A DNA stretch of 64,000 nucleotides from an uncultured Bacteroidales bacterium. Lineage in GTDB: Bacteria > Bacteroidota > Bacteroidia > Bacteroidales > P3. The position numbers and the translations under genes are program-made. The notes beneath the pieces are model-generated. The model saw only the letters and a list, made by a program, of their open reading frames with translations, made no database searches and was not told where the DNA came from. This document shows positions 34,377-48,139 of the stretch, piece after piece. Location of the stretch: positions 1 to 64,000 of the forward strand of contig CAJOHZ010000003.1 in the NCBI GenBank assembly GCA_905234695.1, written 5' to 3'. The number at the start of each line of letters is the position of its first letter. Position 1 is the stretch's first letter.

Positions 34377-34513
34377 CGAGTTTTTCTTTGGTCGATAAGA
34401 ATTATTTTCCATGATATGAATTCTGGTAACGCCAAACACTAATAACAGAGACGCATTCTTTTACAATAATAGTAAAAAGTAGTAAAAAACATAAATCTAT
34501 AATAATTAAAAAA

Positions 34514-34553
34514 TATTTTACTGATTAAGAAAAAGTTTGTATCTTTGCAGCGC
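34514..34553 (+). promoter_or_regulatory. Promoter of the first fic gene (cassette type)
   Basis: TATCTTTG lies at 34540-34547. The surrounding 40 bases (ATTTT...TAAGAAAA...GTATCTTTGCAGCG) are largely the same as the promoters in front of the DUF1016 gene (36291-36324) and qatA (37416-37449), so the three island cassettes share one promoter design. The -33 site is T-rich. Confidence 0.7.
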
Positions 34554-34575
34554 CAAAAACTAATGATAGTAGCAA

Positions 34576-34705: not shown

Positions 34706-36214
34706 ATGGCGACATTACAGGAAAAACTGGCAAAATCCATGGAGATATTGAAGGCATTCCAAGATTCCCATGGGGATAATTTGGTGATCCAAGGTGCTGA
34801 TACATTAGGCCGGGTTCATACTGAACGGTTGGTGAATAGTGGATATCTGCAGATGGTCATCAAGGGTTGGTATATCCCATCGATGCCGGGAAGAGAAGGA
34901 GATTCCACAGTATGGTATGTGTCGTACTGGAGTTTCGTAACCTCATATCTAAACAAAAAATTCAATGAAGCGTGGTGCCTGTCGCCAGAGCTGTCGCTTT
35001 ATTTTTATAGTGGGAATACAGTTATCCCAAAACAACTTATTGTTCGCAGTGAATCCGGTACGAACAACATTCTTCAACTTCCATTCGGGACATCCATTGT
35101 GGACATCAAAGCCACATTACCTCTGAATGTGGTCCAGGAATCCCGCTATGGAGTACGATTATATCCAATGGAATATGCCCTTTTGATGGTGGGGCCTGAT
35201 TATTATCGACGTAATGCACTAGAAGCAAGGACGTGTTTGGCCAGTTTGAAAGATGTGTCACCATTGGTGTCGGCAGCCATTGACGGGGGACACACAACAC
35301 GTGCGGGGCGCGTGGCTGGCGCGTTGCGTTCCATTGGCCGTGAGGAGATGGCCGACGAGATACTACGAATAATGCGCCAAGTGGGTTATACCGTGTCGGA
35401 AGAGAATCCGTTTGATGAGAATGTGCGGATGGTAGTATTTGCAGAATCGCCGTATGCATCTCGGATACGGCTGATGTGGATGCAGATGCGGAAGGTGGTA
35501 ATGGAAATCGTAAATATTAAACCGGTGAAGCAAGATGCAGCATCCGTGTTGGCCATGATGGATGCGACATATGTGAAGGATAGCTACAACTCCTTGTCGA
35601 TAGAGGGATATAAGATTACAGAGGAATTGCTGGAGCGTGTTCGTAGTGGTAACTGGAACCCGGCGAAAGACGAAGAAGACAAGGAACGCAAAGACGCGTT
35701 GGCTGCTCGCGGTTATTATCAAGCGTATGAATTACTGAAACAGGGGGTAGCTGACTGCTTTTCAGGTCAGGCACCTGCACAGTTATATGTCAAAGGGCAT
35801 CAAAACTGGCACTTTCAGTTGTTTGAGCCGTGCATTAGAGCTGGCATAGTGAAAGCGACAGATTTGTTAGGATACCGCAAGAGTCAGGTATATATCCGAA
35901 ACTCTATGCATACGCCTTTGAATCCAGATGCCTTGCTGGATGCAATGAGCACATTGTCGGATCTGATGACGAAAGAGGACAATGCATTGGTGCGCGCTAT
36001 TTTAGGACATTTCTTCTTTGTGTATATCCATCCATACATGGATGGAAACGGGCGCACCGCTCGATTTGTGATGAACAGTCAACTGGTGACAGCGGGCTAC
36101 CCTTGGGTAGTGGTCCCCGTGAATCGCCGTCAGGAATATATGGAAGCGTTGGAGCAAGCGAGCGTTTGTGAGAACATCGAAGCATTTGCACGATTCGTAC
36201 AGAGTTTGATATAA
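34706..36214 (+). CDS. Fic-family protein with AbiEi-like N-terminus
   Basis: 502 aa. The Fic active-site motif HPYMDGNGRTAR is at 442-453, so it should transfer AMP or a related group to a protein target. An inhibitory motif S-x-x-x-E-G is at 296-301 (SLSIEG), placing it with Fic proteins inhibited by an N-terminal helix in cis. The first 150 residues (GRVHTERLVNSGYLQMVIKG, then WYIP) resemble winged-helix AbiEi-type antitoxin regions and could bind DNA or autoregulate. It is AT-richer than its chromosomal neighbours. It is followed by a DUF1016 C-terminal relic, suggesting it replaced that gene. Confidence 0.88.
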   Translation: MATLQEKLAKSMEILKAFQDSHGDNLVIQGADTLGRVHTERLVNSGYLQMVIKGWYIPSMPGREGDSTVWYVSYWSFVTSYLNKKFNEAWCLSPELSLYFYSGNTVIPKQLIVRSESGTNNILQLPFGTSIVDIKATLPLNVVQESRYGVRLYPMEYALLMVGPDYYRRNALEARTCLASLKDVSPLVSAAIDGGHTTRAGRVAGALRSIGREEMADEILRIMRQVGYTVSEENPFDENVRMVVFAESPYASRIRLMWMQMRKVVMEIVNIKPVKQDAASVLAMMDATYVKDSYNSLSIEGYKITEELLERVRSGNWNPAKDEEDKERKDALAARGYYQAYELLKQGVADCFSGQAPAQLYVKGHQNWHFQLFEPCIRAGIVKATDLLGYRKSQVYIRNSMHTPLNPDALLDAMSTLSDLMTKEDNALVRAILGHFFFVYIHPYMDGNGRTARFVMNSQLVTAGYPWVVVPVNRRQEYMEALEQASVCENIEAFARFVQSLI

Positions 36215-36226
36215 TCTAAGTTCGGC

Positions 36227-36274
36227 GATCAGGAGGCCGCCCGCCAGCGCTGGGAGAATCGCACAGAGGACTAA
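36227..36274 (+). pseudogene. C-terminal relic of a DUF1016/YhcG-type gene
   Basis: The codons read DQEAARQRWENRTED-stop, nearly identical to the intact downstream gene's end (GLEAARQRWENCTED-stop, to 37399). The match starts abruptly 18 bases after the fic stop. It is part of the left copy of the 97-bp direct repeat (36232-36328). A second DUF1016 gene must once have ended here. Confidence 0.85.
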
Positions 36275-36328
36275 CTGCTAAAGATTATTTTGCCAAATAA
36301 GAAAAGATTCGTATCTTTGCAGCGGGAA
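36232..36328 (+). repeat. Left direct repeat of the DUF1016 cassette
   Basis: 97 bases with 6 differences from 37357-37453. It contains the last 14 codons of a DUF1016 gene plus the promoter of the next gene (TATCTTTG at 36312-36319). The repeats flank the intact DUF1016 gene. Confidence 0.9.
36312..36319 (+). promoter_or_regulatory. Promoter -7 element of the DUF1016 gene
   Basis: TATCTTTG. Transcription near 36326 would leave a leader of only about 6 bases to the ATG at 36332, or about 21 to the alternative ATG at 36347. Confidence 0.75.
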
Positions 36329-36331
36329 AAT

Positions 36332-37399
36332 ATGAGAACCAAAGACATGGATAAAACCACAGAAACAGTACCGGTTCGAACATTATTGATTGACGACTTG
36401 CGGTCAATAATCAACCGCGCAAGAGCGAATGTTGCCTTAAAAGCCAATGCAGAATTAATTCTGATGTTCTGGGAGATTGGTGAACGAATTAATCGCGAAG
36501 TCCTTGGCAATAAAAGGGCCACCTATGGGCAGCAAATTGTGTCGCAGGTTGCGACACAATTGCAGGCGGAGTTTGGCAAGAAAGGATTTGGCGTTAGAAG
36601 CATACGTAGGATGATGCAGTTTGCCGAATACTTCCCCGACAATAAGATTGTGTCGCAGGTTGCGACACAATTAAGCTGGTCTCATATTATTGAAATATTG
36701 CCATTCAAAGATGCCATTCAAAGAGAATTCTATTTAACAATGGCATCAACGGAACATTGGGGAAGAGATGTGTTGCGAGCAAAAATTGACGGCATGCTGT
36801 ACGAGCGCACCGCCATTGCGACGAAACCAGACGAACTGATCAAACAGGAGCTGTCGGAACTGCGGGAGAGCAATGTCCTTACCCCAGACCTGGTTTTCAA
36901 GAGCCCCTACTTCCTTGAGTTTACTGGTCTCAAGGGGATGTACAGCGAGAAGAGCCTCGAGGATAGCTTGGTGGCGCATCTGGAGCAGTTTATACTGGAG
37001 TTGGGCAATGGCTTCACCTTTGTCGAGCGGCAGAAGCGGATGATTATTGACGGGGAGGACTTCTACCTCGACCTGCTTTTCTACCATCGTAGGCTGCACC
37101 GGCTGATAGCCATCGACTTGAAACTCGGCAAGTTCAAGGCGCAGTACAAAGGCCAGATGGAGTTGTATCTGCGTTGGCTCGAAGCCCACGAGATGGAGGC
37201 TGGCGAGGAACAACCCCTCGGCCTGTTGCTCTGTACCGAAGGTGGCGACGAGCAGATAGAGCTGCTGCAACTCGACAAATCGGGTATCAAGGTGGCACAG
37301 TATATGACCGAACTGCCATCCAAAGAGCTGCTGCAACGCCAACTGCACAAAGGCCTGGAGGCCGCCCGCCAGCGCTGGGAGAATTGCACGGAGGACTAA
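36332..37399 (+). CDS. DUF1016/YhcG-type PDDEXK nuclease-domain protein
   Basis: About 355 aa. The N-terminal DUF1016_N helical domain (LKANAELILMFWEIGERINR, GVRSIRRMMQFAEYFPDN, LSWSHIIEILPF) is followed by a PDDEXK-like nuclease fold: FYLDLLFYHRRLHRLIAIDL and K supply D-x(n)-D-x-K. These proteins occur widely beside restriction systems and in defence islands; activity on DNA is inferred from the fold. The segment IVSQVATQL occurs twice (residues of about 70 and 107), each encoded by the same palindromic 26 bases. The start at 36332 or 36347 is chosen because the promoter lies at 36312-36319. It is flanked by direct repeats. Confidence 0.88.
   Translation: MRTKDMDKTTETVPVRTLLIDDLRSIINRARANVALKANAELILMFWEIGERINREVLGNKRATYGQQIVSQVATQLQAEFGKKGFGVRSIRRMMQFAEYFPDNKIVSQVATQLSWSHIIEILPFKDAIQREFYLTMASTEHWGRDVLRAKIDGMLYERTAIATKPDELIKQELSELRESNVLTPDLVFKSPYFLEFTGLKGMYSEKSLEDSLVAHLEQFILELGNGFTFVERQKRMIIDGEDFYLDLLFYHRRLHRLIAIDLKLGKFKAQYKGQMELYLRWLEAHEMEAGEEQPLGLLLCTEGGDEQIELLQLDKSGIKVAQYMTELPSKELLQRQLHKGLEAARQRWENCTED
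36535..36561. repeat. In-gene palindrome, copy 1
   Basis: Arms AATTGTGTCGCA and TGCGACACAATT (12 bp, perfect) around GGT. Lies inside the DUF1016 gene and encodes part of QIVSQVATQLQ. 26 bases (36536-36561) are identical to copy 2. Confidence 0.9.
36647..36672. repeat. In-gene palindrome, copy 2
   Basis: The same 26 bases as copy 1, starting 111 bases downstream, with 11-bp perfect arms. Encodes part of KIVSQVATQLSW. Confidence 0.9.
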
Positions 37400-37453
37400 T
37401 CGCTAAAGATTATTTTGTCAAATAAGAAAAGATTCGTATCTTTGCAGCGTGAA
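37357..37453 (+). repeat. Right direct repeat of the DUF1016 cassette and qatA promoter
   Basis: Matches 36232-36328 at 91 of 97 positions. It covers the true end of the DUF1016 gene (stop 37397-37399) and TATCTTTG at 37437-37444, which serves qatA (ATG 37477). Confidence 0.9.
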
Positions 37454-37476
37454 ATTTACAGAAAAATATAAATAAT

Positions 37477-39342
37477 ATGTGGCCAGATAAGGAATCTGAA
37501 AGGGATTATTTGAATTATAGGTATATGGTTGATTTGATAGTGGATATTGCGACCAATAAATCGCTTTCACCTTCTACCATCGGTTTATACGGAGACTGGG
37601 GTAGCGGTAAATCAACCCTTATGAAACTTGCTAAAGATGCCATTGAACAGAAAGCAAAGGAAAGAAGCAAAAAATGGAAAATGAAGGATGGCGAAATGGA
37701 TGTTGATATGCCCCAAACGCTTTGTGTTGAGTTTAATGGATGGCTGTTTGAAGGATATGAAGACACCAAAACATCTCTTTGTGGAACGATACTTGATGCC
37801 TTGGCTGACGAAAAACGATTTGGGCCAAATGTCGTTGATTATGCCAAAGAACTGCGAAAAAAGATAGATGTCAAAAAAATAGTAGGGAAAGGGGTAAAGT
37901 ATGGCCTAGATTACTTCCTGACAGGTGGAATAGGAGCCCTTACCGATTTGACATTGAGCAATGTACTCTCTTCTATAAAAACCAATATGAATGACGTTCA
38001 GGCAAAAGATGTTGAAGAGGTGCTTTCCAAATTCAAAAAGGATGATAAAACTCGTACAGAAATAAAAAACTTCAGAGAAGAATTCTCCAAACTATTAAAA
38101 AAAAGCAAAGTAGAAAACCTTGTGGTTTTTATTGATGAGCTTGACCGTTGTTTGCCAGATACTATATTGGAGATATTTGAAGCAATACGATTATTCCTCT
38201 ATGTAGATGGTATGTCATTTGTGATTGGTGCTGATGAACGATTGATACAGTTTGCTATAAAAACAAAGTACAAAGAGGTCCCAGGAAATAATCTTGATAT
38301 TGGTAAAGAGTATCTTGAGAAAGTAATTCAATATCCCATTTCTATTCCTCCGTTGAATCATGCAGAGGTCAACCAATATTTATCGTGCCTGCTACTTGAA
38401 AATACGCTTATTGAAGAGGGTGAGTTTGACGCTTTTTTGAAAGTTGTTCATAGTATAGGACCTGATCAAGAACTGACTATCGAACTTTTAGAGAAGAATG
38501 TTCGCCAAATAACTGAAAAGTGCAAGCCTGACATGGCTTTTGCAAAACAGATTTCTTCGGTATTAGCTCCTAGCATAAATGGCAATCCACGCCAATGCAA
38601 GCGATTCCTCAATACTCTTTATATGCGGATGAATCTTGCCAAATCTCGAGGGATTGAGTTGAACAAAAATATTTTAGCCAAATTACTCCTTGCCGAGTAT
38701 TTCAAGTCAGATTTCTTCGATGTTTTGGTAAAAGAGGCTAACTGGGATAATTTCAAGAGTTTTGAAAAAGGAGAGGCATTAGAGGACACTAATCCTTTTG
38801 CCGTCTGGAAAGACGATACATGGGTGAAAACATGGAACAATAACGGGACTATAATTGGTAATGAAAAATTAGATAAATATGTTTATTTCGCTAATATTAA
38901 GAACTGTTATAATCACTCTAAACTTGACATGCTGAGTCCAACAGCAAGAAAAAGTTTTGATCTGTTGGCCAGTGGAACGGACTCGGGAAGAAATCAAGGC
39001 GTGAAAATAGCCAAGGAACTTTCGGCAGGAGAAAAAGCTATCATTGCATCTGAATTGTTTGTAATTGTAGAAACTGCACCTGAGATGAATAATGAGGTGT
39101 TGCGTTCTTTTACAGATGTATGTGCTGAAGTTGACATGATGGATTATGCTTTAAAGAAATTAATGGAGTTGCCTGCCGAAAAATATACATTTGAAACATA
39201 TGGACAACTAACAACCTTCTTGAATAAACTGGATGAGGAAAGAAAGACGCAATTGGTTTCATACTTGTCTTCAAATCAACAGCTGAATAATACTATTCAA
39301 AGAACAAATCAATTAACTAGTTCTTTCAAAAAGAAAAAATAA
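37477..39342 (+). CDS. qatA: QatA, KAP-family P-loop NTPase of the Qat defence system
   Basis: 621 aa. Walker A GDWGSGKST at 39-47 and Walker B with LVVFIDELDRCLPD near 215 identify a KAP NTPase. The following helical region (DTILEIFEAIRLFLYVDGMS, FVIGADERLI) is typical of the family. In the published four-gene Qat anti-phage system the KAP ATPase is the first gene. Here it is followed by QatB, a QueC-like protein and a TatD-like nuclease with overlapping ends, matching the full system. No membrane segment is evident. The AT-rich codon use suggests transfer. The ATPase probably powers or gates the effector; the mechanism is not known from the sequence. Confidence 0.9.
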   Translation: MWPDKESERDYLNYRYMVDLIVDIATNKSLSPSTIGLYGDWGSGKSTLMKLAKDAIEQKAKERSKKWKMKDGEMDVDMPQTLCVEFNGWLFEGYEDTKTSLCGTILDALADEKRFGPNVVDYAKELRKKIDVKKIVGKGVKYGLDYFLTGGIGALTDLTLSNVLSSIKTNMNDVQAKDVEEVLSKFKKDDKTRTEIKNFREEFSKLLKKSKVENLVVFIDELDRCLPDTILEIFEAIRLFLYVDGMSFVIGADERLIQFAIKTKYKEVPGNNLDIGKEYLEKVIQYPISIPPLNHAEVNQYLSCLLLENTLIEEGEFDAFLKVVHSIGPDQELTIELLEKNVRQITEKCKPDMAFAKQISSVLAPSINGNPRQCKRFLNTLYMRMNLAKSRGIELNKNILAKLLLAEYFKSDFFDVLVKEANWDNFKSFEKGEALEDTNPFAVWKDDTWVKTWNNNGTIIGNEKLDKYVYFANIKNCYNHSKLDMLSPTARKSFDLLASGTDSGRNQGVKIAKELSAGEKAIIASELFVIVETAPEMNNEVLRSFTDVCAEVDMMDYALKKLMELPAEKYTFETYGQLTTFLNKLDEERKTQLVSYLSSNQQLNNTIQRTNQLTSSFKKKK

Positions 39343-40190
39343 TGGGAACATCAAGCCTCTATGGAGGACCAAAGAAAACGGTTCTTTTGCCATCGGATTA
39401 CAATCCAGAAGAGACCCCTTGGAGTGTGGATCAGAATGTAGAACAGCCAGAACTATGGGAGCCTGAAAATGAGGATTCTAATAAGGAACAATTAGGTGGT
39501 AATTCAGATTCTAACAACCTAATGCTACTAGAAATATCATGGAGTGACATTCGACGTTCTATTACTCATTCCATGAATCACATGACAGCGAGAAATGTCA
39601 AAAAAGCTATCCGAAACTACACAAAAGCTCTTGGTGGCCATACGAATGCTACTCGACAAGCAAAGACAGCTCGACATACTGCTACTAAAATAATCAGTTA
39701 CTTTAGTGGCACTCCAGAAACCATCCGAACTCGTTTTGAAAATGCTGGCATTCGATTTGAAAACCGCCCGACAAAGGATATACTCAATGACATATGCCTA
39801 TTGTTAGCACCTATGCCTAATGACATTGAGGATTCTTTAGCCAATAGTGCATTGGATAAGACAATTGCAGATATTGCAATGGATGAGACGATAGATCTTA
39901 GTTTATTGGAAAGTTTCAGTGAGGAGCTACTTCAAAACATGGTGGGCGGTTTCATAAAGCATTATGTGTATGATAAACTAATCCAACAATCGGAACAAGG
40001 TGCATTGGCAAGATGCAATGATTTAGCGAAACTAAACAAGCTTGAAAAAAGCATCAAAAAGTATATAGATGGGATTGTGGATGGTATTGTTCCCGATTTC
40101 ATTCGTTCGGGAATGGTCCAATCTGATATTAATAAAATGGTTGATGGTTTGTTTGATGCTGCTTATCAACAAATGGAGGAACTACAATGA
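39342..40190 (+). CDS. qatB: QatB, Qat system component of unknown function
   Basis: 282 aa. The start overlaps the qatA stop (TAATG). A low-complexity acidic N-terminus (LLPSDYNPEETPWSVDQNVE) precedes an all-helical body (SWSDIRRSITHSMNHMTARN, VKKAIRNYTKALGGH). No catalytic motif is visible. It is called QatB from its position between the KAP ATPase and the QueC-like gene. Confidence 0.82.
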   Translation: MGTSSLYGGPKKTVLLPSDYNPEETPWSVDQNVEQPELWEPENEDSNKEQLGGNSDSNNLMLLEISWSDIRRSITHSMNHMTARNVKKAIRNYTKALGGHTNATRQAKTARHTATKIISYFSGTPETIRTRFENAGIRFENRPTKDILNDICLLLAPMPNDIEDSLANSALDKTIADIAMDETIDLSLLESFSEELLQNMVGGFIKHYVYDKLIQQSEQGALARCNDLAKLNKLEKSIKKYIDGIVDGIVPDFIRSGMVQSDINKMVDGLFDAAYQQMEELQ

Positions 40191-41491
40191 AAAATAGTTT
40201 TGTTTTTATACTCTCAAACCACGATTGTTTTTCAATAACTGGGGCACAAAGAGTTAATATCAATGATTCTTCACAACTGCGCTATACTTTTTGGCATCCT
40301 CGGGTTGGTGGAGGAAGGAAACAAATGTATAAAACCCCTCAGTATTTCGCGGCTGAAGCTCTTGACCTGCTTTATCTGTCACTTGCGGTATTTTATGTTG
40401 ACAAAAAAGTAAATCGAAAAGTACAAGATGATGCTTGGACACGTAATCTTGAGGTTTATTTACCTGTCAAAGAATATCAAAAATGGGAATCTTGCAAACA
40501 AATCATAACGGATGCATTGAATTATCTTACTGGCGACCACTGGTCTCTGCATTTTCGTGAACGTACAGATTTGACTGAAGATGAATATCGTTATAGGAAA
40601 GGACGCTATACTTATAGAAACTCAGTAAAATGGATTGACACAGACTCATTCTGTATGCTTTCTGGTGGGTTGGATTCCTTCATTGGCGCAATCAATCTAC
40701 TTTGCGAAGATAAAAGTCCTGTTTTTGTTGGTAATTACAACGGTGGGAAAGGAGTTAAGAATTACCAAGATGCGGTTGTGAAATCTTTAGTTGCCCGGTA
40801 CAAAGTCTCAGAAGACCACTTTTTCCGTTTCTACGCAGCCCCCGTTAGTTGCCTTGAGGACTCAACCAGATCTCGTTCACTAATGTTTTTTGCTCACGCC
40901 ATAGCTGTGGCATCTGGGATGGGACATCATGTTGATTTATTTATTCCTGAAAACGGCGTTATATCGTTGAATATTCCTTTAACCGTAATGCGACTCGGAA
41001 GTCTGAGTACCCGAACCACCCATCCGTATTTCATGGGATTGCTGCAAAAAATCATTACACAATTAGGAATAGATGTTACCTTGAAGAATCCATTCCAGTT
41101 TCAGACCAAGGGCGAAATGATGATACGATGTTTGGATAAGATTTTTTTGAACGATAATTTCAATAAAACAATGTCCTGTTCTCACCCTGATCAAGGTAGG
41201 TGGACTGGCGACAAACGTCCTTGCCATTGTGGAACATGTCTACCATGTACAATTCGTCGTGCTGCCATAAAAGCTGCTGGCTTGACGGATAATTCTAACT
41301 ATAGGGACCCGAACTATTTGAAGCCAGAAGCTCGTAAGAATTTGATATCATATCGTCAGGGTTTGTTAGAGAATAAATATCCTCTCTCTGCCATACAAAT
41401 GTCCGGTCCAATATATGACGACTTTAAGCTTTACACTGAGTTATATGAGCATGGTATACAAGAAATGAAAGACTTTATTGATACAATATGA
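40187..41491 (+). CDS. qatC: QatC, QueC-like PP-loop protein of the Qat system
   Basis: 434 aa, overlapping qatB by 4 bases. The PP-loop ATP pyrophosphatase motif SGGLDSF is at about 159-165, and a QueC-type zinc site is at 346-354 (CHCGTCLPC, with an upstream Cys in MSCSHPDQGRW). QueC makes preQ0 in queuosine synthesis; the extra N-terminal 150 residues and the operon context indicate the Qat homologue, possibly modifying a nucleobase or a protein. Confidence 0.88.
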   Translation: MKNSFVFILSNHDCFSITGAQRVNINDSSQLRYTFWHPRVGGGRKQMYKTPQYFAAEALDLLYLSLAVFYVDKKVNRKVQDDAWTRNLEVYLPVKEYQKWESCKQIITDALNYLTGDHWSLHFRERTDLTEDEYRYRKGRYTYRNSVKWIDTDSFCMLSGGLDSFIGAINLLCEDKSPVFVGNYNGGKGVKNYQDAVVKSLVARYKVSEDHFFRFYAAPVSCLEDSTRSRSLMFFAHAIAVASGMGHHVDLFIPENGVISLNIPLTVMRLGSLSTRTTHPYFMGLLQKIITQLGIDVTLKNPFQFQTKGEMMIRCLDKIFLNDNFNKTMSCSHPDQGRWTGDKRPCHCGTCLPCTIRRAAIKAAGLTDNSNYRDPNYLKPEARKNLISYRQGLLENKYPLSAIQMSGPIYDDFKLYTELYEHGIQEMKDFIDTI

Positions 41492-42192
41492 TGGAGCACT
41501 TACATGATTCTCACTTTCATCTTGATTTACAACAAAACCGTACAGCTGCAATACAGCATATAGAGGACAATAGAATTTATACGATTGCTGTTACAAATTT
41601 ACCCGACTTGTATCGACGTGAATCAGGTGGAGTGGCAAGTAAGTATATACGATTTGCCCTTGGGTTTCATCCAGAGTTAGTACACCAATTCAAGAATCAG
41701 ATACCTTTGATGTGGACTTTATTGCCAAATGTCCGTTATATTGGTGAGGTCGGTTTGGACTTCGTCGATACATCATTTCAAAATGAACAGGTCGCTTTTT
41801 TTTCAGAATTGATAGAGCTTTGCAGAAATGATCATAACAAGATTATTACCATTCATTCTCGTAGAGCGGTGAAGCATGTAATAAGGATAATTGGAAAAAA
41901 CTTTCAATTTAAACCGATTCTACACTGGTTTACTGGAAATAAAGAGGAGTTATTAAGTGCGATTGATGCTGGTTTTTACATTTCGGTGAATGGTATGATG
42001 ATGAACTCAAGTCGGTTTTTGTCAATACTTCCAATAATTCCAGCTAATCGTATATTGGTTGAAACCGATAGCCCCTTTACACAATACTTAATAAACCATG
42101 CATCCACATTGAGAAGCATTGTATCCTCTATTAATAAGTTCAGGCCTGATGTTGATGTTTTTGCCAATTTTGACAATCTTATAACTGAATAA
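41488..42192 (+). CDS. qatD: QatD, TatD-like metal-dependent nuclease of the Qat system
   Basis: 234 aa, overlapping qatC by 4 bases. TatD metal ligands are visible: HFH in HDSHFHLD, Glu in RYIGEVGLDF, His in ITIHSRRAV, His in ILHWFTG and Asp in LVETDSPF. It is a little shorter than housekeeping TatD (about 260 aa). It is the predicted DNA-cutting component and last gene of the operon. Confidence 0.9.
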   Translation: MMEHLHDSHFHLDLQQNRTAAIQHIEDNRIYTIAVTNLPDLYRRESGGVASKYIRFALGFHPELVHQFKNQIPLMWTLLPNVRYIGEVGLDFVDTSFQNEQVAFFSELIELCRNDHNKIITIHSRRAVKHVIRIIGKNFQFKPILHWFTGNKEELLSAIDAGFYISVNGMMMNSSRFLSILPIIPANRILVETDSPFTQYLINHASTLRSIVSSINKFRPDVDVFANFDNLITE

Positions 42193-42246: not shown

Positions 42247-42336
42247 CAAACAAAATAACAACCAAAAAAGACAACATATAGAAACAGAATAATAGAAGAT
42301 AAATAACATAAAATAAAGCGTTTTTGCTTTTCAAGT

Positions 42337-42444
42337 GATTGGAAATCTGGACAATTTCTTATCCCAACGAGAAGGCAGAAATGCTCGCGGTGATATCCGT
42401 GGGCTTTCTCGTTTTGGGATATAGGCAGTCCAGAGCCTCCAATC
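42337..42444 (+). ncRNA. Long structured leader element or small RNA
   Basis: A nested inverted repeat of 108 bases. GATTGGA (42337-42343) pairs with TCCAATC (42438-42444); TCTGGAC (42346-42352) with GTCCAGA (42428-42434); TATCCCAA (42360-42367) with TTGGGATA (42414-42421); CGAGAA (42368-42373) with TTCTCG (42406-42411). An apical CGCGG/CCGTG stem carries loop TGATAT (42391-42396). All pairs are colinear, giving a rod with small internal loops. An open frame runs through it from 42339 but looks non-coding. It could be a regulatory leader, an sRNA or a small mobile palindrome; I do not recognise a known family. Confidence 0.6.
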
Positions 42445-42467
42445 AGACAGAAGTTCACGGATTTTTT

Positions 42468-43157
42468 ATGCCTAGCAACGATAAAACAAAATCACAGATT
42501 AAGAGCCGCCAACGGGTGGCTCAACACGGCGAGGTGTTCACCAATCCACGCGAGGTGAATGCTATGCTCGACTTGGTGCGGGATGAGTCGTTCCGGCTCG
42601 ACAGCCGTTTTCTTGAGCCCGCCTGTGGCGACGGCAATTTTCTTATAGAGATTCTGCGCCGCAAACTTTCACTTCTTTCTTCTGTAAAGTCTTTGACGGA
42701 ATGGGAATTTAAGAGCCTTATTGCCGTGGGCTCTTGTTATGGGATCGAGCTGTTGGAGGATAATGCCGAGGCATGCCGGGAGAGGCTGTATCGCGAGGTG
42801 ATTGACACATATTCCTGTTCACTGCACACCCCCTCCCCCCTTCGGGGTACTCCCCCTAACTTAGGGGGAGAGCCGAGTTACCTTAAGTCACTCAAATATA
42901 TGCTGCAGAAGAATATCGTCTGCGGGGATGCGCTGACGTATCGCACTGCGGACGGTAAGCCGATTACTTTCTGTGAGTGGACTCCCATCGCGGGGAGTAT
43001 GCAGTTTGCGCGACGCGACTTTCAGTTTGACTTTCTGGTCAACCAGACACACCAGTATTCTCTCTTCGACGAGCAGGGCGAGGCACAGAGCTTCGACGAA
43101 CCTGTCAAGTCGTACCCACCAGTCCACTACACGCAATTGTTTACTCAAACAGAATAA
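42468..43157 (+). CDS. Short DNA adenine methylase-like protein (motif I only)
   Basis: 229 aa. The start at 42468 (MPSNDKTKSQIKSRQRVAQH) is preferred over the frame opening at 42339, which would translate the structured element. EVFTNPREVNAMLDL and the SAM-binding motif I FLEPACGDGNFLIEILRRK are clear, as is GIELLEDNAEACRERL. The catalytic NPPY motif is absent; the corresponding stretch reads FDFLVNQTHQYSLF. A GC-rich palindromic insert (42828-42874) adds about 15 codons (HTPSPLRGTPPNLGGEP). It may be a helper of the full methylase downstream or a decayed enzyme. Confidence 0.7.
   Translation: MPSNDKTKSQIKSRQRVAQHGEVFTNPREVNAMLDLVRDESFRLDSRFLEPACGDGNFLIEILRRKLSLLSSVKSLTEWEFKSLIAVGSCYGIELLEDNAEACRERLYREVIDTYSCSLHTPSPLRGTPPNLGGEPSYLKSLKYMLQKNIVCGDALTYRTADGKPITFCEWTPIAGSMQFARRDFQFDFLVNQTHQYSLFDEQGEAQSFDEPVKSYPPVHYTQLFTQTE
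42828..42874. repeat. GC-rich palindromic insert inside the methylase-like gene
   Basis: A small CCCC-TTC-GGGG hairpin is followed by a perfect palindrome, CTCCCCCTAA (42850-42859), C, TTAGGGGGAG (42861-42870). It is read in frame as PSPLRGTPPNLGGE, a sequence unlike the rest of the protein. Confidence 0.75.
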
Positions 43158-43238: not shown

Positions 43239-44738
43239 ATGAAAGAACGATATTCACCCGATATCTTGAACTGCTTGGCCAACCTCAGCAGTGACGAGGT
43301 CTTTACCTCGCCGGAGCTGGCCAACAGTATGCTCGATCTGCTGCCGCAGGAGTTGTTCCATAGTCCGAAGACTCGCTTTCTCGATCCCTGTGCGAAGAGT
43401 GGTGTCTTCCTGCGCGAGATTGCCAAGCGACTGCTTGCCGGGCTGGAAGCGGAGTTTCCAAACTTGCAAAAGCGTATCGACCACATTATGACCCGACAGG
43501 TCTTCGGCATCGCCTGTACCGACCTCACCGCCGAGATGAGCCGCCGGACGCTCTACTGCTCCAAACATGCCAATGGTGAGTACAGCGTCAGCACCGCCTT
43601 CCGCGACCAGCAAGGCAATCTCCGCTACGACCGCTGCCAGCATACTTGGAACGCGCAAGGCCGCTGTGAGTACTGCGGCGCCAGCAAAGGCGAGTACCTC
43701 CGCACCGACAGCCGCGAGACCTACGCCTATCCCTTTATCCATAAATCAATCAAAGAAATATTCAAGAAAGATATGCAATTCGACGTAATCATAGGCAACC
43801 CACCGTACCAGCTCGACGATGGTGGTGCACAGGCAAGTGCAAGTCCAATATACCAGTTATTTGTCATGCAGTCAATGAAGTTAAAGCCTCGATATTTTAG
43901 TATGATTATTCCCGCTCGCTGGTATGGTGGAGGTAAAGGACTTGATGATTTTAGGAAAGATATGATAGAGGATAAACGCGTCAGAATACTGCATGATTAT
44001 ATGAACGCCGCTGATTGTTTTCCTGGTGTGGAAATAAAGGGAGGTGTATGCTATTTCCTATGGGATATATCATATAACGATAAGTGTCATATCTACACAC
44101 ATACAGGAGAAAAGGTGATTGAACAAAAGCCAAGATTTTTAAAAGAAGAGGGTAGTGATGTATTTATTCGTTATGAAATTGGTGTAGATATTCTTAACAA
44201 AGTGAAGAAAAAGAGGGAAAAAACAGTTGATACCATAGTTAGTTCTCAGAAACCATTCGGATTAAGGACATTTGTTCAAGGAGAAGAGCATCCTTTTGCA
44301 GGGAGCTTAACACTTTACCAAAATGGAGGTGTTGGTTATATTGACCGTTTGCAAATCGAAAAAGGGAAGGAATTATTAAACAAACATAAGGTTTTTGTCT
44401 CACGGGCATATAATGCAGGTGATAATTATCCCCATCAAATAATAGGAAAACCCATTTACGGAGGGCCTAATACATGTTGTACAGAGACATACGTAACAAT
44501 AGGGCCTTTCTGTGACAAGGTCAGCACAGAGAACTTTATATCATACCTTTCGACACGTTTCTTTCGATTCATGGTTTTTCTATCAAAGGTATCACAAATG
44601 GCTCCTGCAAAAGTCTACCAATTCGTCCCCCTCCAAGACTTCTCCCATCCGTGGACGGACGAGATGCTGTACAAGAAATACGGCCTAACGAAGGATGAGA
44701 TTGCTTTTATCGAAAGTATGATACGACCGATGGAATAG
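43239..44738 (+). CDS. Eco57I-type DNA adenine methylase
   Basis: 499 aa. Motif I is in TRFLDPCAKSGVFLREIAKR and the catalytic NPPYQ in FDVIIGNPPYQLDD. A four-ligand zinc-ribbon-like stretch (CQHTWNAQGRCEYC) lies between them. The remaining 250 residues are a probable target-recognition region (SMIIPARWYGGGKGLDDFRK, KVYQFVPLQDF). It should methylate adenine in a specific DNA sequence as the modification part of the restriction system whose helicase/nuclease gene lies at 45554-48123. Codon use is GC-rich at the 5' end and AT-rich after about 43800, hinting at a mosaic gene. Confidence 0.88.
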   Translation: MKERYSPDILNCLANLSSDEVFTSPELANSMLDLLPQELFHSPKTRFLDPCAKSGVFLREIAKRLLAGLEAEFPNLQKRIDHIMTRQVFGIACTDLTAEMSRRTLYCSKHANGEYSVSTAFRDQQGNLRYDRCQHTWNAQGRCEYCGASKGEYLRTDSRETYAYPFIHKSIKEIFKKDMQFDVIIGNPPYQLDDGGAQASASPIYQLFVMQSMKLKPRYFSMIIPARWYGGGKGLDDFRKDMIEDKRVRILHDYMNAADCFPGVEIKGGVCYFLWDISYNDKCHIYTHTGEKVIEQKPRFLKEEGSDVFIRYEIGVDILNKVKKKREKTVDTIVSSQKPFGLRTFVQGEEHPFAGSLTLYQNGGVGYIDRLQIEKGKELLNKHKVFVSRAYNAGDNYPHQIIGKPIYGGPNTCCTETYVTIGPFCDKVSTENFISYLSTRFFRFMVFLSKVSQMAPAKVYQFVPLQDFSHPWTDEMLYKKYGLTKDEIAFIESMIRPME

Positions 44739-45002: not shown

Positions 45003-45212
45003 ATGACCGAAATAACATTAAGAGTCACTAACGAAAGCCTTCTGCCTAGTTTCCGCAAGTTGATACGGAGTATCGATGGTATAGACATTGTGCCCACTAA
45101 ACGTAAACGCAAGAGCGGAATTGAGCAGGCACTTGAAGACGTTGCTGCCGGACGGGTGACCGAGTGGAAAAGTGCAGATGAAATGTTCAAAACATTGATG
45201 GCGGAGGCATAA
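45003..45212 (+). CDS. Antitoxin of a YafQ-type module
   Basis: 69 aa: MTEITLRVTNESLLPSFRKL, then IRSIDGIDIVPTKRKRKSG, then IEQALEDVAAGRVTEWKSAD. The N-terminal beta strand and helix suit a DNA-binding, dimerising antitoxin head; the acidic C-terminal helix would wrap the toxin. It is not an obvious DinJ homologue, but the one-base TAATG overlap with the toxin gene and the size support the role. Confidence 0.8.
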   Translation: MTEITLRVTNESLLPSFRKLIRSIDGIDIVPTKRKRKSGIEQALEDVAAGRVTEWKSADEMFKTLMAEA

Positions 45213-45487
45213 TGTATAGTGTACGAACCACAAAGAATTACGAGCGTGCTTTCAAAAAGTGTGTTCGTCGTGGACTGCCAATGGACAAGTTGGACAAGGT
45301 TGTGAAAACGCTTGAAGCCACAGGTACACTTCCTCAAAAGTATCGTCCCCACAAGTTGTCTGGTTTTGTTGGCAACAATGTCTGGGAATGCCATATACAG
45401 CCCGACTGGCTTTTGGTATGGCAACAATTCGACGAAGAACTGGTGCTGTTGATGCTCGACACGGGTACACACTCTGACATCTTCTAA
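45212..45487 (+). CDS. YafQ-family mRNA interferase toxin
   Basis: 91 aa, RelE superfamily. The residues used by YafQ for ribosome-dependent mRNA cleavage are present: H47, H61, D65, W66 and H87, with the C-terminal Phe at 91. GGAGG precedes its overlapping start, unusual for this genome. It lies between the methylase and the restriction helicase, so it may stabilise the locus or add an abortive response. Confidence 0.9.
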   Translation: MYSVRTTKNYERAFKKCVRRGLPMDKLDKVVKTLEATGTLPQKYRPHKLSGFVGNNVWECHIQPDWLLVWQQFDEELVLLMLDTGTHSDIF

Positions 45488-45505: not shown

Positions 45506-45559
45506 CTGCATAAGAGCGTCTGTTTGAAACGATAACGGACAAACTGATATATTATGCAG
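45506..45559 (+). promoter_or_regulatory. Inverted repeat enclosing a start codon
   Basis: CTGCATAA (45506-45513) is complementary to TTATGCAG (45552-45559), which contains the ATG of the GIY-YIG/helicase gene. An inner GTTTG/CAAAC pair (45522-45526, 45540-45544) extends the hairpin. It could hide the start codon or be an operator. Confidence 0.45.
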
Positions 45560-45991
45560 ACGACAGAACAGATACTCCCCGAGATGCGGCGGGCGATGCC
45601 GCAGATTTATATGTACGACGACACGTCGTTTCCCGGTTGGATCAAAATCGGGCAGACGACGCGGGCTGACGTGCGGCAGCGCATCGACGAGCAGCACCCA
45701 ATCACGGAACCGCACAAGACCTACCACTTGCTGTGGCACGACAACGCCTTCTATGCCGACGGCAGCGGCGAGAGCTTCAGCGACCACGACCTGCACGAAG
45801 TGCTGCGCCGTATGGGCAAGGAGCTGACTCTCTGCGCGAGGCCAAGGCCGCCTACGTGGCGGTGCGCCATCGCGACACCCATATCGAGACTGTGCGCGAC
45901 CTCGACTATAAGATGCGCCCCGAGCAGGAGCTGGCCGTGCAGCAGACGGCCGACTACTTCGCCATGATGGATGCTGAAGAGGCCGAACGAT

Positions 45992-46008
45992 GCAGGCGGG
46001 ACGCCTGC
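45992..46008. repeat. GC palindrome inserted before the helicase Walker A motif
   Basis: GCAGGCG, GGA, CGCCTGC, followed by CGCTCCCAGG. It is in frame (CRRDACAPRPS) just ahead of WNAKMRFGKT. Confidence 0.65.
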
Positions 46009-46215
46009 GCTCCCAGGCCCAGCCACTATCTGTGGAATGCCAAGATGCGCTTCGGCAAGACCTTTGCCACCTATCAGCTGGCAAAGAGGATGAATGCAAA
46101 GCGGGTGCTGGTGCTCACCTTCAAACCCGCCGTGGAAGACTCGTGGCGCGACGACCTGCTGCGTCACCGCGACTTCGAAGGGTGGCGGTATTACAGTAGT
46201 CGTGACGCGGATGCC

Positions 46216-46252
46216 ACTAACGCATTAACGCATTCACACACTAACGCATTCC
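46216..46252. repeat. ACTAACGCATT-type repeat inside the helicase gene
   Basis: ACTAACGCATTAACGCATTC (46216-46235), then ACACACTAACGCATTCC, in frame as TNALTHSHTNAF. The 20-base unit recurs inverted at 48140-48159 with one difference. Confidence 0.75.
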
Positions 46253-48139
46253 CTTTGGTTGTCTTTGGCTCCTTCCAAGACTACCTCGGCAGAGACCGCT
46301 ACGGTAACATCAAACCCAAGAATGAGTGGGTACACAGTATCAACTGGGACCTCATCGTATTGGACGAGTACCACTTCGGCGCTTGGAACGACAATGCCAA
46401 GAGTCTGCTCGACCTCGGCGATGCCGATGCCAAGCGTCGGCAGGCGGAAGAGGACGAGGTGATGAGCGAGAGCGGCATCGACGTGGAGAGCGGCCGCGCG
46501 TGGGACGACGAGGACATCCCCATCACCGGCAAGCATTTCCTCTACCTCAGCGGCACCCCATTCCGTGCTCTCGCCACAGGCGAGTTTATGGAGAACCAGA
46601 TATTCAACTGGACCTATCAGGAAGAGCAGGCACGGAAAGAGGCCGTCGGCGGCCCCTATTTAGAGATGCCCACCATGGTGATGCTGACCTACCAGATGCC
46701 ACAGGACCTCGGCGCCATGATAGAGCAATGGGATATGGACGGCTTCGACCTCAACGAGTTCTTCAGAGCCGAAGTCGTGCGCGACCGTAAGGGAGCGAAC
46801 GGTGGCAAATCTGAAGGAGTTGCCACTTTCGTCCATGAAAAGGCGGTGCAGAAGTGGCTCGACATCATCCGAGGCAAGACGCCCATCTATGGCGACAGCA
46901 GTTCGCCGCTCAACGATCATCCGCCCCTGCCCTTCGAAGACACCCGTCTGCTCGACCTCTGCGCCCACACGATGTGGTTCCTGCCCAACGTGGCCTCGTG
47001 CGACGCCATGGAGGCACTGCTGCGACGTCCGGCCAATGGTTTCTACCAGACCTATCAAATCATCAACTGTAGCGGCAGCAAGGCCGGTATTGGCGTGGAC
47101 GCCCTCGGACCTGTGCGCGATGCCATGGGCGAAAACCCATTGACGACACGCACCATCACGCTGACCTGCGGCAAGCTGACCACTGGTGTCACCCTTCGCC
47201 CATTGGGCGGACTGTTGATGCTTCGCAATTGCTCTTCGCCCGAGACCTATTTCCAGACAGCCTTCCGAGTACAGAGTCCCTGGACAGCCACCGACAAGGA
47301 CGACCCCACAAAGAAGACCATCTTGAAGCCCACCTGCTATGTCTTCGACTTCGCCCCCAACCGTGCCCTGCGCGAGGTGGTGACCTACGCCAACCAGCTG
47401 GACGTCGACAGCAACCGCCGCATCACCGACAAGGTGAACGACTTCATCAACTTCCTGCCCATCCTCCAGTTCGACGGCAGCTCGATGAAGCGAGTGGATG
47501 CCACCGAGATACTCGACTTCGTGGACAACGGCACCAGCGGCACCCTGCTGGCACGCAGATGGAACAGCGCCCAGTTGGTCAACGTTGACAACGCCACTCT
47601 GCAACGTGTACTCGACAACCCCGAGGCGCTGGCTACCATCATGAAGATAGAGGGTTTCCGTGCCCTGGGCAACGACATCATTGAAAATATCGTCAACCGC
47701 GCGGAGCGGATAAAGAAATTGAAACGCGAGGCGGGTGACAACTCCAAGAAAAAGAAGGAGCTGACCGCCGAAGAGAAAGAATATCGTTCCAAACGGCGCG
47801 AGGTGCAAGAGAAACTGATGAAGTTCGCTACGCGCATCCCCATCTTCATGTATCTGACCGACTACCGTGAGGAGAGCCTCGAGGATGTCATCCGCAAACT
47901 GGAGCCATCGCTATTTGAACGAGTCACCGGCCTCACCATCGACGACTTCGACCTGCTACTGCGCATTGGTGTCTTCAACCGTGCCCAGATGAACGATGCC
48001 ATCTTGAAGTTCCGCCGCTACGAGGATGCCTCGTTAGCCTATACCGGCGTGAACCGTCACGCTTCGGACACCCGCATCGGTTTGATGGACAGCACCGTGC
48101 CCATTGAGGCACTGGTGGAGTAATTATAGAAGACGTAAA

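Follow-up and report, generated by a model that had tools for sequence, protein, structure and literature searches.

Truncated 3' ends of a predicted DUF1016 nuclease gene and the promoter behind it recur at the joints of a variable defense island in a genus of rumen Bacteroidales

Introduction

By what route defense islands acquire and shed genes when no mobile element is evident is, to our knowledge, an open question. In integron cassettes and in the recombinase-associated interbacterial defense arrays of Bacteroidales, exchangeable genes are separated by a recurring sequence. The stretch of DNA analyzed here, 64,000 nucleotides from an uncultured Bacteroidales bacterium (positions 1 to 64,000 of contig CAJOHZ010000003.1, assembly GCA_905234695.1; hereafter, the window), contains an intact DUF1016 gene between two copies of a direct repeat, the first of which places a remnant of a DUF1016 gene behind a Fic gene. 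What was the parent of this remnant, how did it come to follow Fic, and does the repeat take part in the exchange of neighboring genes? Since the repeated end of a candidate defense nuclease gene, together with a promoter, marks the joints, exchange at this locus can be followed and measured.

Results

The genes of interest lie on the forward strand in the order Fic, relic, DUF1016, Qat, MT1, and MT2, and are followed by a helicase-like gene. The Fic/DOC gene (34706 to 36214, 502 amino acids; PF02661, SoFic, PDC-S04) precedes the relic, which is followed by the intact DUF1016/YhcG gene (36335 to 37399, 354 amino acids from 36335; PDC-S02). Next come a Qat system (37477 to 42192), complete and in the order qatA-qatB-qatC-qatD according to PADLOC, then MT1, a short methyltransferase-like gene (42468 to 43157), and MT2, an Eco57I-type methyltransferase gene (43239 to 44738). 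The DUF1016 protein, a predicted PD-(D/E)XK nuclease, scored 149.7 bits with PF17761 (DUF1016_N) and 150.1 bits with PF06250 (YhcG_C), the cut-offs being 32.8 and 32.5. Residues D246 and K263 are invariant in 41 of 41 aligned DUF1016 sequences, and in our own reading they represent the PD-(D/E)XK signature as set out in the sections of PMC1189080 consulted, which relate the nuclease domain of the DUF1016/YhcG family to YraN-like Holliday-junction resolvases. The window protein shares both domains and the nuclease signature with the family described there. No structure-solved relative was found by sequence. A second DUF1016 gene of the same genome (G000:C19:55769-56740) is 34% identical.

An earlier note on this DNA, made from the sequence alone, had reported that 36232 to 36328 and 37357 to 37453 agree at 91 of 97 bases, and the same count was obtained here. 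Both copies extend to 107 nucleotides (36232 to 36338 and 37357 to 37463, forward strand), 97 of which are identical, and identity drops to 1 to 6 of 10 in the flanking ten-base blocks just beyond. Also in keeping with that note, each copy holds the last ~14 DUF1016 codons, the TAA stop, and the next promoter, which is that of DUF1016 on the left and that of qatA on the right. Judged from sequence comparison, the repeat comprises the end of a predicted DUF1016 nuclease gene plus the promoter of the gene that follows, and this promoter fits what we take to be the Bacteroidales consensus (TTTG, 19 bases, TATCTTTG). The relic proper (36232 to 36274) consists of roughly the last 14 codons and the stop and has no start codon. 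It had been described as fused just after the Fic stop; it does follow Fic, but begins 17 nucleotides past the stop at 36214 and not directly on it.

A search of the window's own genome (2.47 Mb, 70 contigs) with the left copy retrieved the right copy at an E value of 1.9e-37. At least 44 further matches were obtained with 40 of 117 candidates scored, all of them from query base 53 onward and hence confined to the promoter part. Among the matches listed, the coding part occurs in just these two places, and the genome has one relic only. The promoter region of Fic (34500 to 34558, forward strand) likewise resembles the promoter part of the repeats (74% over 58 nucleotides; 79% over 52 nucleotides).

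The 264-nucleotide DUF1016 end was then used as a query against 120 genomes of the genus, which comprises rumen bacteria (E ≤ 1e-12, with six or fewer candidates per genome scored). Matches were found in 43 genomes, at two or more places in 15 of these, and 77 of the 120 had no match at this threshold. The same search with the MT2 end, likewise with at most six candidates scored per genome, matched 37 of the 120 genomes, with two places in 3; it serves as a less biased control that tallies places, not relics. Together with the window, 48 stretches around matched places gave a sample of 49 stretches from 43 genomes, in which a nucleotide profile of the last 156 DUF1016 codons detected 34 truncated DUF1016 3' ends. 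Their starts fall at codons 317 to 325 (24 relics), at 327 to 333 (7 relics), and at 251, 305, and 341 (the window relic); being ranged yet clustered, they are unlike what uniformly random breakage or a single exact site would give. One of the 34, which starts at codon 330 in L044 (loci are designated by L and a number), looks like an internal DUF1016 deletion and not a fusion. Relative to the window gene, 13 of 34 relics contain an in-frame stop or frameshift. Because the relics retain some codon periodicity and the other 21 have neither defect, some of them may be young or homogenized. When a stricter rule was applied to the 49 stretches, 3' relics lacking a body numbered 27 for DUF1016, 1 for the helicase gene, and 0 each for Fic, MT1, and MT2, counts that lean toward DUF1016 because the stretches were collected by its end.

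A search for relics outside the genus covered 80 named loci; 11 have a C-terminal relic, and each of these 11 is 78% or more identical to the window protein. Other named loci yielded promoter matches and three odd pieces: 45 nucleotides at codons 272 to 287 (L078), seven codons plus promoter (L097), and codons 217 to 250 at 69% (L109). DNA searches with the locus returned zero matches from phage collections and 141 records from plasmid collections; these were all 60 to 80% identical, and each covered less than 80% of the query.

What stands ahead of the relics differs among genomes. Nineteen of the 34 start 0 to 58 nucleotides past the stop of an upstream open reading frame, which encodes Fic (6), a second Fic (2), a divergent DUF1016 (5), AAA_14/DUF4143 (4), or a protein of unknown family (2); no upstream frame stops within that distance of the other 15, for which the nearest ends are farther off or doubtful. 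A Fic about 91% identical to that of the window precedes the relic in six loci (the window, L041, L048, L139, L160, and L166), the second Fic does so in L044 and L045, and the divergent DUF1016, 93 to 97% alike in the pairs compared, in L039, L040, L041, L042, and L144. AAA_14/DUF4143 is found before the relic in L047, L140, and L142, a more distant AAA_14/DUF4143 in L141 and L154, and unnamed families in L145 to L147 and in L159 and L162. The Fic-relic fusion, which the window's genome shares with the genomes of five other species, thus exemplifies a pattern found across the genus. Its junction has two alignable forms. That of the window starts as in L160 and L166, is shorter by ~95 bases, and looks like a trimmed version of theirs, its remnant of ~14 codons having probably arisen by later deletion; L161 has the same spacer without a relic. 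By eye, the ~57-nucleotide spacer just past the Fic stop in L160, L161, and L166 resembles the 3' end of another gene, the one preceding the DUF1016 fragment in L140 (5330 to 5430), and is perhaps a second layer of gene-end relics.

Two sets of loci bear on the fate of the DUF1016 body. L140, L141, and L154 each retain the N-terminal part of a DUF1016 gene, which stops at codons 113 to 116, then AAA_14, then a C-terminal relic. L139 carries Fic, tail, promoter, and cargo; in place of Fic, L039 carries a full DUF1016 gene, with a tail and promoter that closely resemble those of L139 and with cargo homologues (75% and 92%), the two loci diverging at about codon 323. As the comparison of loci shows, Fic took over the place of a DUF1016 body and left its end and promoter. 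Also by eye, three exact or near copies of TTTTGTAAAATAACGCAGT lie upstream of AAA_14/DUF4143 in L154 (6280 to 6385), and similar pieces occur in L140.

The gene after the relic is variable too. Behind Fic, DUF1016 follows the relic in the window, L160, and L048 (truncated) and is absent from L139, L166, and L041; behind the divergent DUF1016, it is present in L039, L040, and L042 and absent from L144 and L041; and behind AAA_14, it is present in L047 and absent from L140 and L142. For three families of upstream gene, loci with and without a following DUF1016 thus exist, which makes plausible the excision by recombination between the repeats that the earlier note had proposed. The arrangement predicted for the excised product is seen in L139, L144, L140, and L142, where a single tail, with no DUF1016, separates the upstream gene from the cargo; in this comparison between species, either loss or gain of DUF1016 could have produced it. 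The window DUF1016, lying between two tails, could be lost in this way to give Fic, tail, and Qat. L053 has the order DUF1016, tail, and Fic, opposite to that of the window.

A DUF1016 end precedes MT1 in 20 loci, of which 4 are empty, with 252 to 312 bp from the DUF1016 end to MT1, and 16 are filled. The filled slots hold 15 cargo sets without mutual similarity (blastp, 1e-10), L039 and L139 being the only pair alike; in the window the cargo is Qat. Six of 10 cargo proteins matched PADLOC defense models (PDC-S60, E1-E2, PDC-M46 with weaker Lamassu similarity, a DRT reverse transcriptase, NsnA/PD-T4-2, and HEC-01), and 4 of 10 had no match at 1e-8. Three further loci carry a reverse transcriptase, an N6 methyltransferase, and a HerA helicase as cargo by Pfam. 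The slot has what characterizes a defense hotspot, namely, conserved flanks, differing defense cargo, and empty sites. Foreign genes stop just ahead of a DUF1016 tail and cargo begins after one, and across these loci DUF1016 ends are shown to be the usual left edge of the cargo slot in a restriction-modification island of the genus; L151 has MT1 without a tail. MT1 is the fixed right flank, and a conserved, putatively structured leader (42310 to 42482, forward strand) forms the right edge of the slot.

This leader, which ends at the MT1 start codon, is conserved in 19 aligned loci, with at least one compensatory change in 14 of 32 predicted pairs; it had no match in Rfam at E ≤ 0.1. Inspection by eye suggests that in many loci one strand complements both an upstream strand and the start-codon strand, as in a two-state switch, and that the window leader retains the upstream pairing only.

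The DUF1016 gene itself contains two in-frame palindromes on the forward strand. Palindrome 1 (36535 to 36561; AATTGTGTCGCA-GGT-TGCGACACAATT) pairs at 12 of 12 arm positions around a 3-nucleotide center and codes for IVSQVATQL, and palindrome 2 (36646 to 36672) pairs at 11 of 12 and codes for the same peptide before SWSH. No other instance of the pattern was found in the window's genome at up to 3 mismatches, and the second DUF1016 gene of that genome has no palindrome of 9 or more pairs. A set of 80 genes was made up of the window gene and those of the named loci other than L135, which lacks the part (79 of 80); almost all are classed as Bacteroidota. With 53 and 50 distinct sequences at sites 1 and 2, arm pairing averaged 10.5 and 10.4 of 12, versus 5.5 and 5.3 when synonymous codons were redrawn. 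In a phylum set of 30 loci that gave 21 usable reading frames, including that of the window, palindromes of at least 11 of 12 were present in 14 genes, versus 2 of 210 codon-shuffled controls; 13 of them lie at codons 87 to 124 and one (L197) at codon 18. Among 17 plasmid genes chosen by hand from plasmid-search records (456 matching records in one search), 8, from six phyla, reached this level, versus 5 of 340 controls. The remaining 7 of 21 and 9 of 17 genes fell below 11 of 12 and, like the second DUF1016 gene of the window's genome, speak against the feature being general.

At the expected place, 338 of 396 arm pairs were complementary (33 of 38 genes with the anchor motif). The covariation score was 0.503 for 81 distinct sequences, compared with 0.139 ± 0.011 after shuffling and at most 0.133 after sliding. 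Palindromes numbered 42 in 31 kb of DUF1016 genes, versus none in ~69 kb of Fic, MT1, MT2, and helicase genes. On the strength of these counts, palindromes that differ in sequence and keep their symmetry occupy the same position in DUF1016 genes from many genera and several phyla. The divergent DUF1016 of L041 (4543 to 5760) has a different palindrome of its own, present twice (ATTTGGCA...TGCCAAAT, 11 and 10 of 12; WQAVPAKL).

Discussion

Comparison among loci shows replacement of DUF1016 bodies, common tails, presence or absence of DUF1016 after the relic, and turnover of cargo. We consider it probable that these have one explanation, in which DUF1016 bodies were replaced, their tails serve as the edge of the slot, and homologous recombination would act at the tail-promoter copies, along with illegitimate joints. 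Recombination between tail-plus-promoter copies of ~100 to 160 bp would allow genes to enter, leave, and reorder, each retaining a promoter, and occasional illegitimate joints would give rise to new gene-tail fusions. The retained ~100 to 160 bp would double as homology and promoter. This recombination reading is based on comparison between species, mostly of metagenome bins. Also counting against it are the 15 relics that have no upstream stop within 0 to 58 nucleotides, the 77 genomes of the genus without a match, the single relic in the window's own genome, and the clustered yet spread-out relic starts.

The earlier note had favored a more local course of events, in which two tandem DUF1016 genes existed and Fic replaced most of the first. 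One part of this agrees with our results, as the relic has a DUF1016 parent whose body was replaced by another gene in L140, L141, and L154 and in L139 relative to L039. The other part has no counterpart among the loci compared: related loci with two intact tandem DUF1016 genes were looked for and occur in none of the 49 stretches. The nearest is L154, where the gutted DUF1016 stands directly ahead of the start of another, and this arrangement does favor a tandem duplication with Fic inserted over the first copy and nothing special about the tail. Such a local history nonetheless seems unlikely, given that relics follow unrelated genes in many genomes, that a DUF1016 end bounds the cargo slot, and that the intact pair is missing. 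We give little credence to a site-specific cassette system, with the tail as a recombinase crossover of the integron or rAID kind and a unit made up of tail, promoter, and gene. The clustering at codons 317 to 325 and the 19 relics lying close behind an upstream stop would suit it, but starts range from codon 251 to codon 341, the clustering is partly due to shared descent (Fic junctions; divergent DUF1016), and no integrase or recombinase domain was detected in 29 Pfam-scanned proteins, a subset of the island genes.

Could the relic have no DUF1016 parent and be either a short gene in its own right or a conserved regulatory element, a case that the earlier note had named as counter to its reading? 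The retention of the tail together with its promoter, the conservation of blocks such as CAACGCCAGC in relics, and the 21 of 34 relics that are unbroken would fit this. Against this, 13 of 34 are broken, N-terminal DUF1016 fragments lie across the foreign gene in L140, L141, and L154, and L161 has Fic and DUF1016 without a relic; on the first two grounds the short gene was rejected, and we regard this whole alternative as extremely improbable. An assembly artefact has almost no chance of being the answer: the named records are mostly MAGs, but the two copies differ, the same junctions recur in several genomes, and the host differs among the named relatives. A classic integration at the 3' end was also rejected. 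It would place the displaced att copy downstream of the insert, whereas the relic of the window lies ahead of the intact gene, and what precedes it is Fic, not a DUF1016 body.

The defense hotspots of Escherichia coli, in the portions of PMC10121019 consulted, resemble the slot in having fixed flanking genes, varying defense cargo, and empty sites. Their contents are for the most part prophages, integrative elements, and transposons; here, a candidate defense nuclease gene, surviving as 3' relics, itself forms the edge, and the proteins scanned included no integrase. A variable defense locus of Streptococcus suis is likewise a single chromosomal locus whose defense elements shift between strains; it differs in that the term "direct repeat" is absent from its text (PMC5398294). 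Relative to integrons and the Bacteroidales defense arrays, the recurring sequence here is the end of a protein gene plus a promoter, and no recombinase was found among the proteins scanned.

The palindromes are an unexplained feature of much of the DUF1016 family and point to a specific and testable idea about the substrate of DUF1016 proteins. A literature search found no report of palindromes in a DUF1016 gene; the consulted sections of PMC1189080 do not mention them in treating the family, and PMC4316617, as far as consulted, refers to DUF1016 and to Rickettsia palindromic elements in separate places. An RNA hairpin as sole cause is not favored because G-T and A-C mismatches are about equally frequent at site 1 (30 versus 30 in 53 distinct sequences) and in the distant set (12 versus 9); site 2 leans toward G-T (21 versus 10 in 50 distinct sequences). 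An inserted element is not favored either, since by eye the second DUF1016 has ILHDFVQNL, of equal length, at that place without a palindrome. Candidate causes are a nuclease acting on structure, a co-evolving binding site, and template switching. Template switching is described as homogenizing inverted-repeat arms and can mimic compensatory change (PMC8604942 and PMC8794818, in the parts consulted); alone, it leaves unexplained why the palindrome occupies a single place in one gene family across phyla.

It is conceivable, though in our view highly unlikely, that DUF1016 promotes recombination and builds the island around itself: the nuclease, predicted to be Holliday-junction-resolvase-like, would act on the hairpin or cruciform of its own palindrome, the breaks would drive gene conversion and replacement, and the 3' relics would be the scars. 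Hints of a link between palindromes and relics come only from inspection by eye, namely, an apparent join of palindromes 1 and 2 in L155 and N-terminal fragments in L140 and L154 that end just past palindrome 2.

Two further features were noted beyond MT2. Two short overlapping genes at 45003 to 45487 look like a toxin-antitoxin pair from their reading frames. The helicase-like gene (45554 to 48123) is broken into two frames (45554 to 45967 and 45733 to 48123), reflecting either a frameshift or a sequencing error; in L041 and L048 it is a single frame of 842 amino acids.
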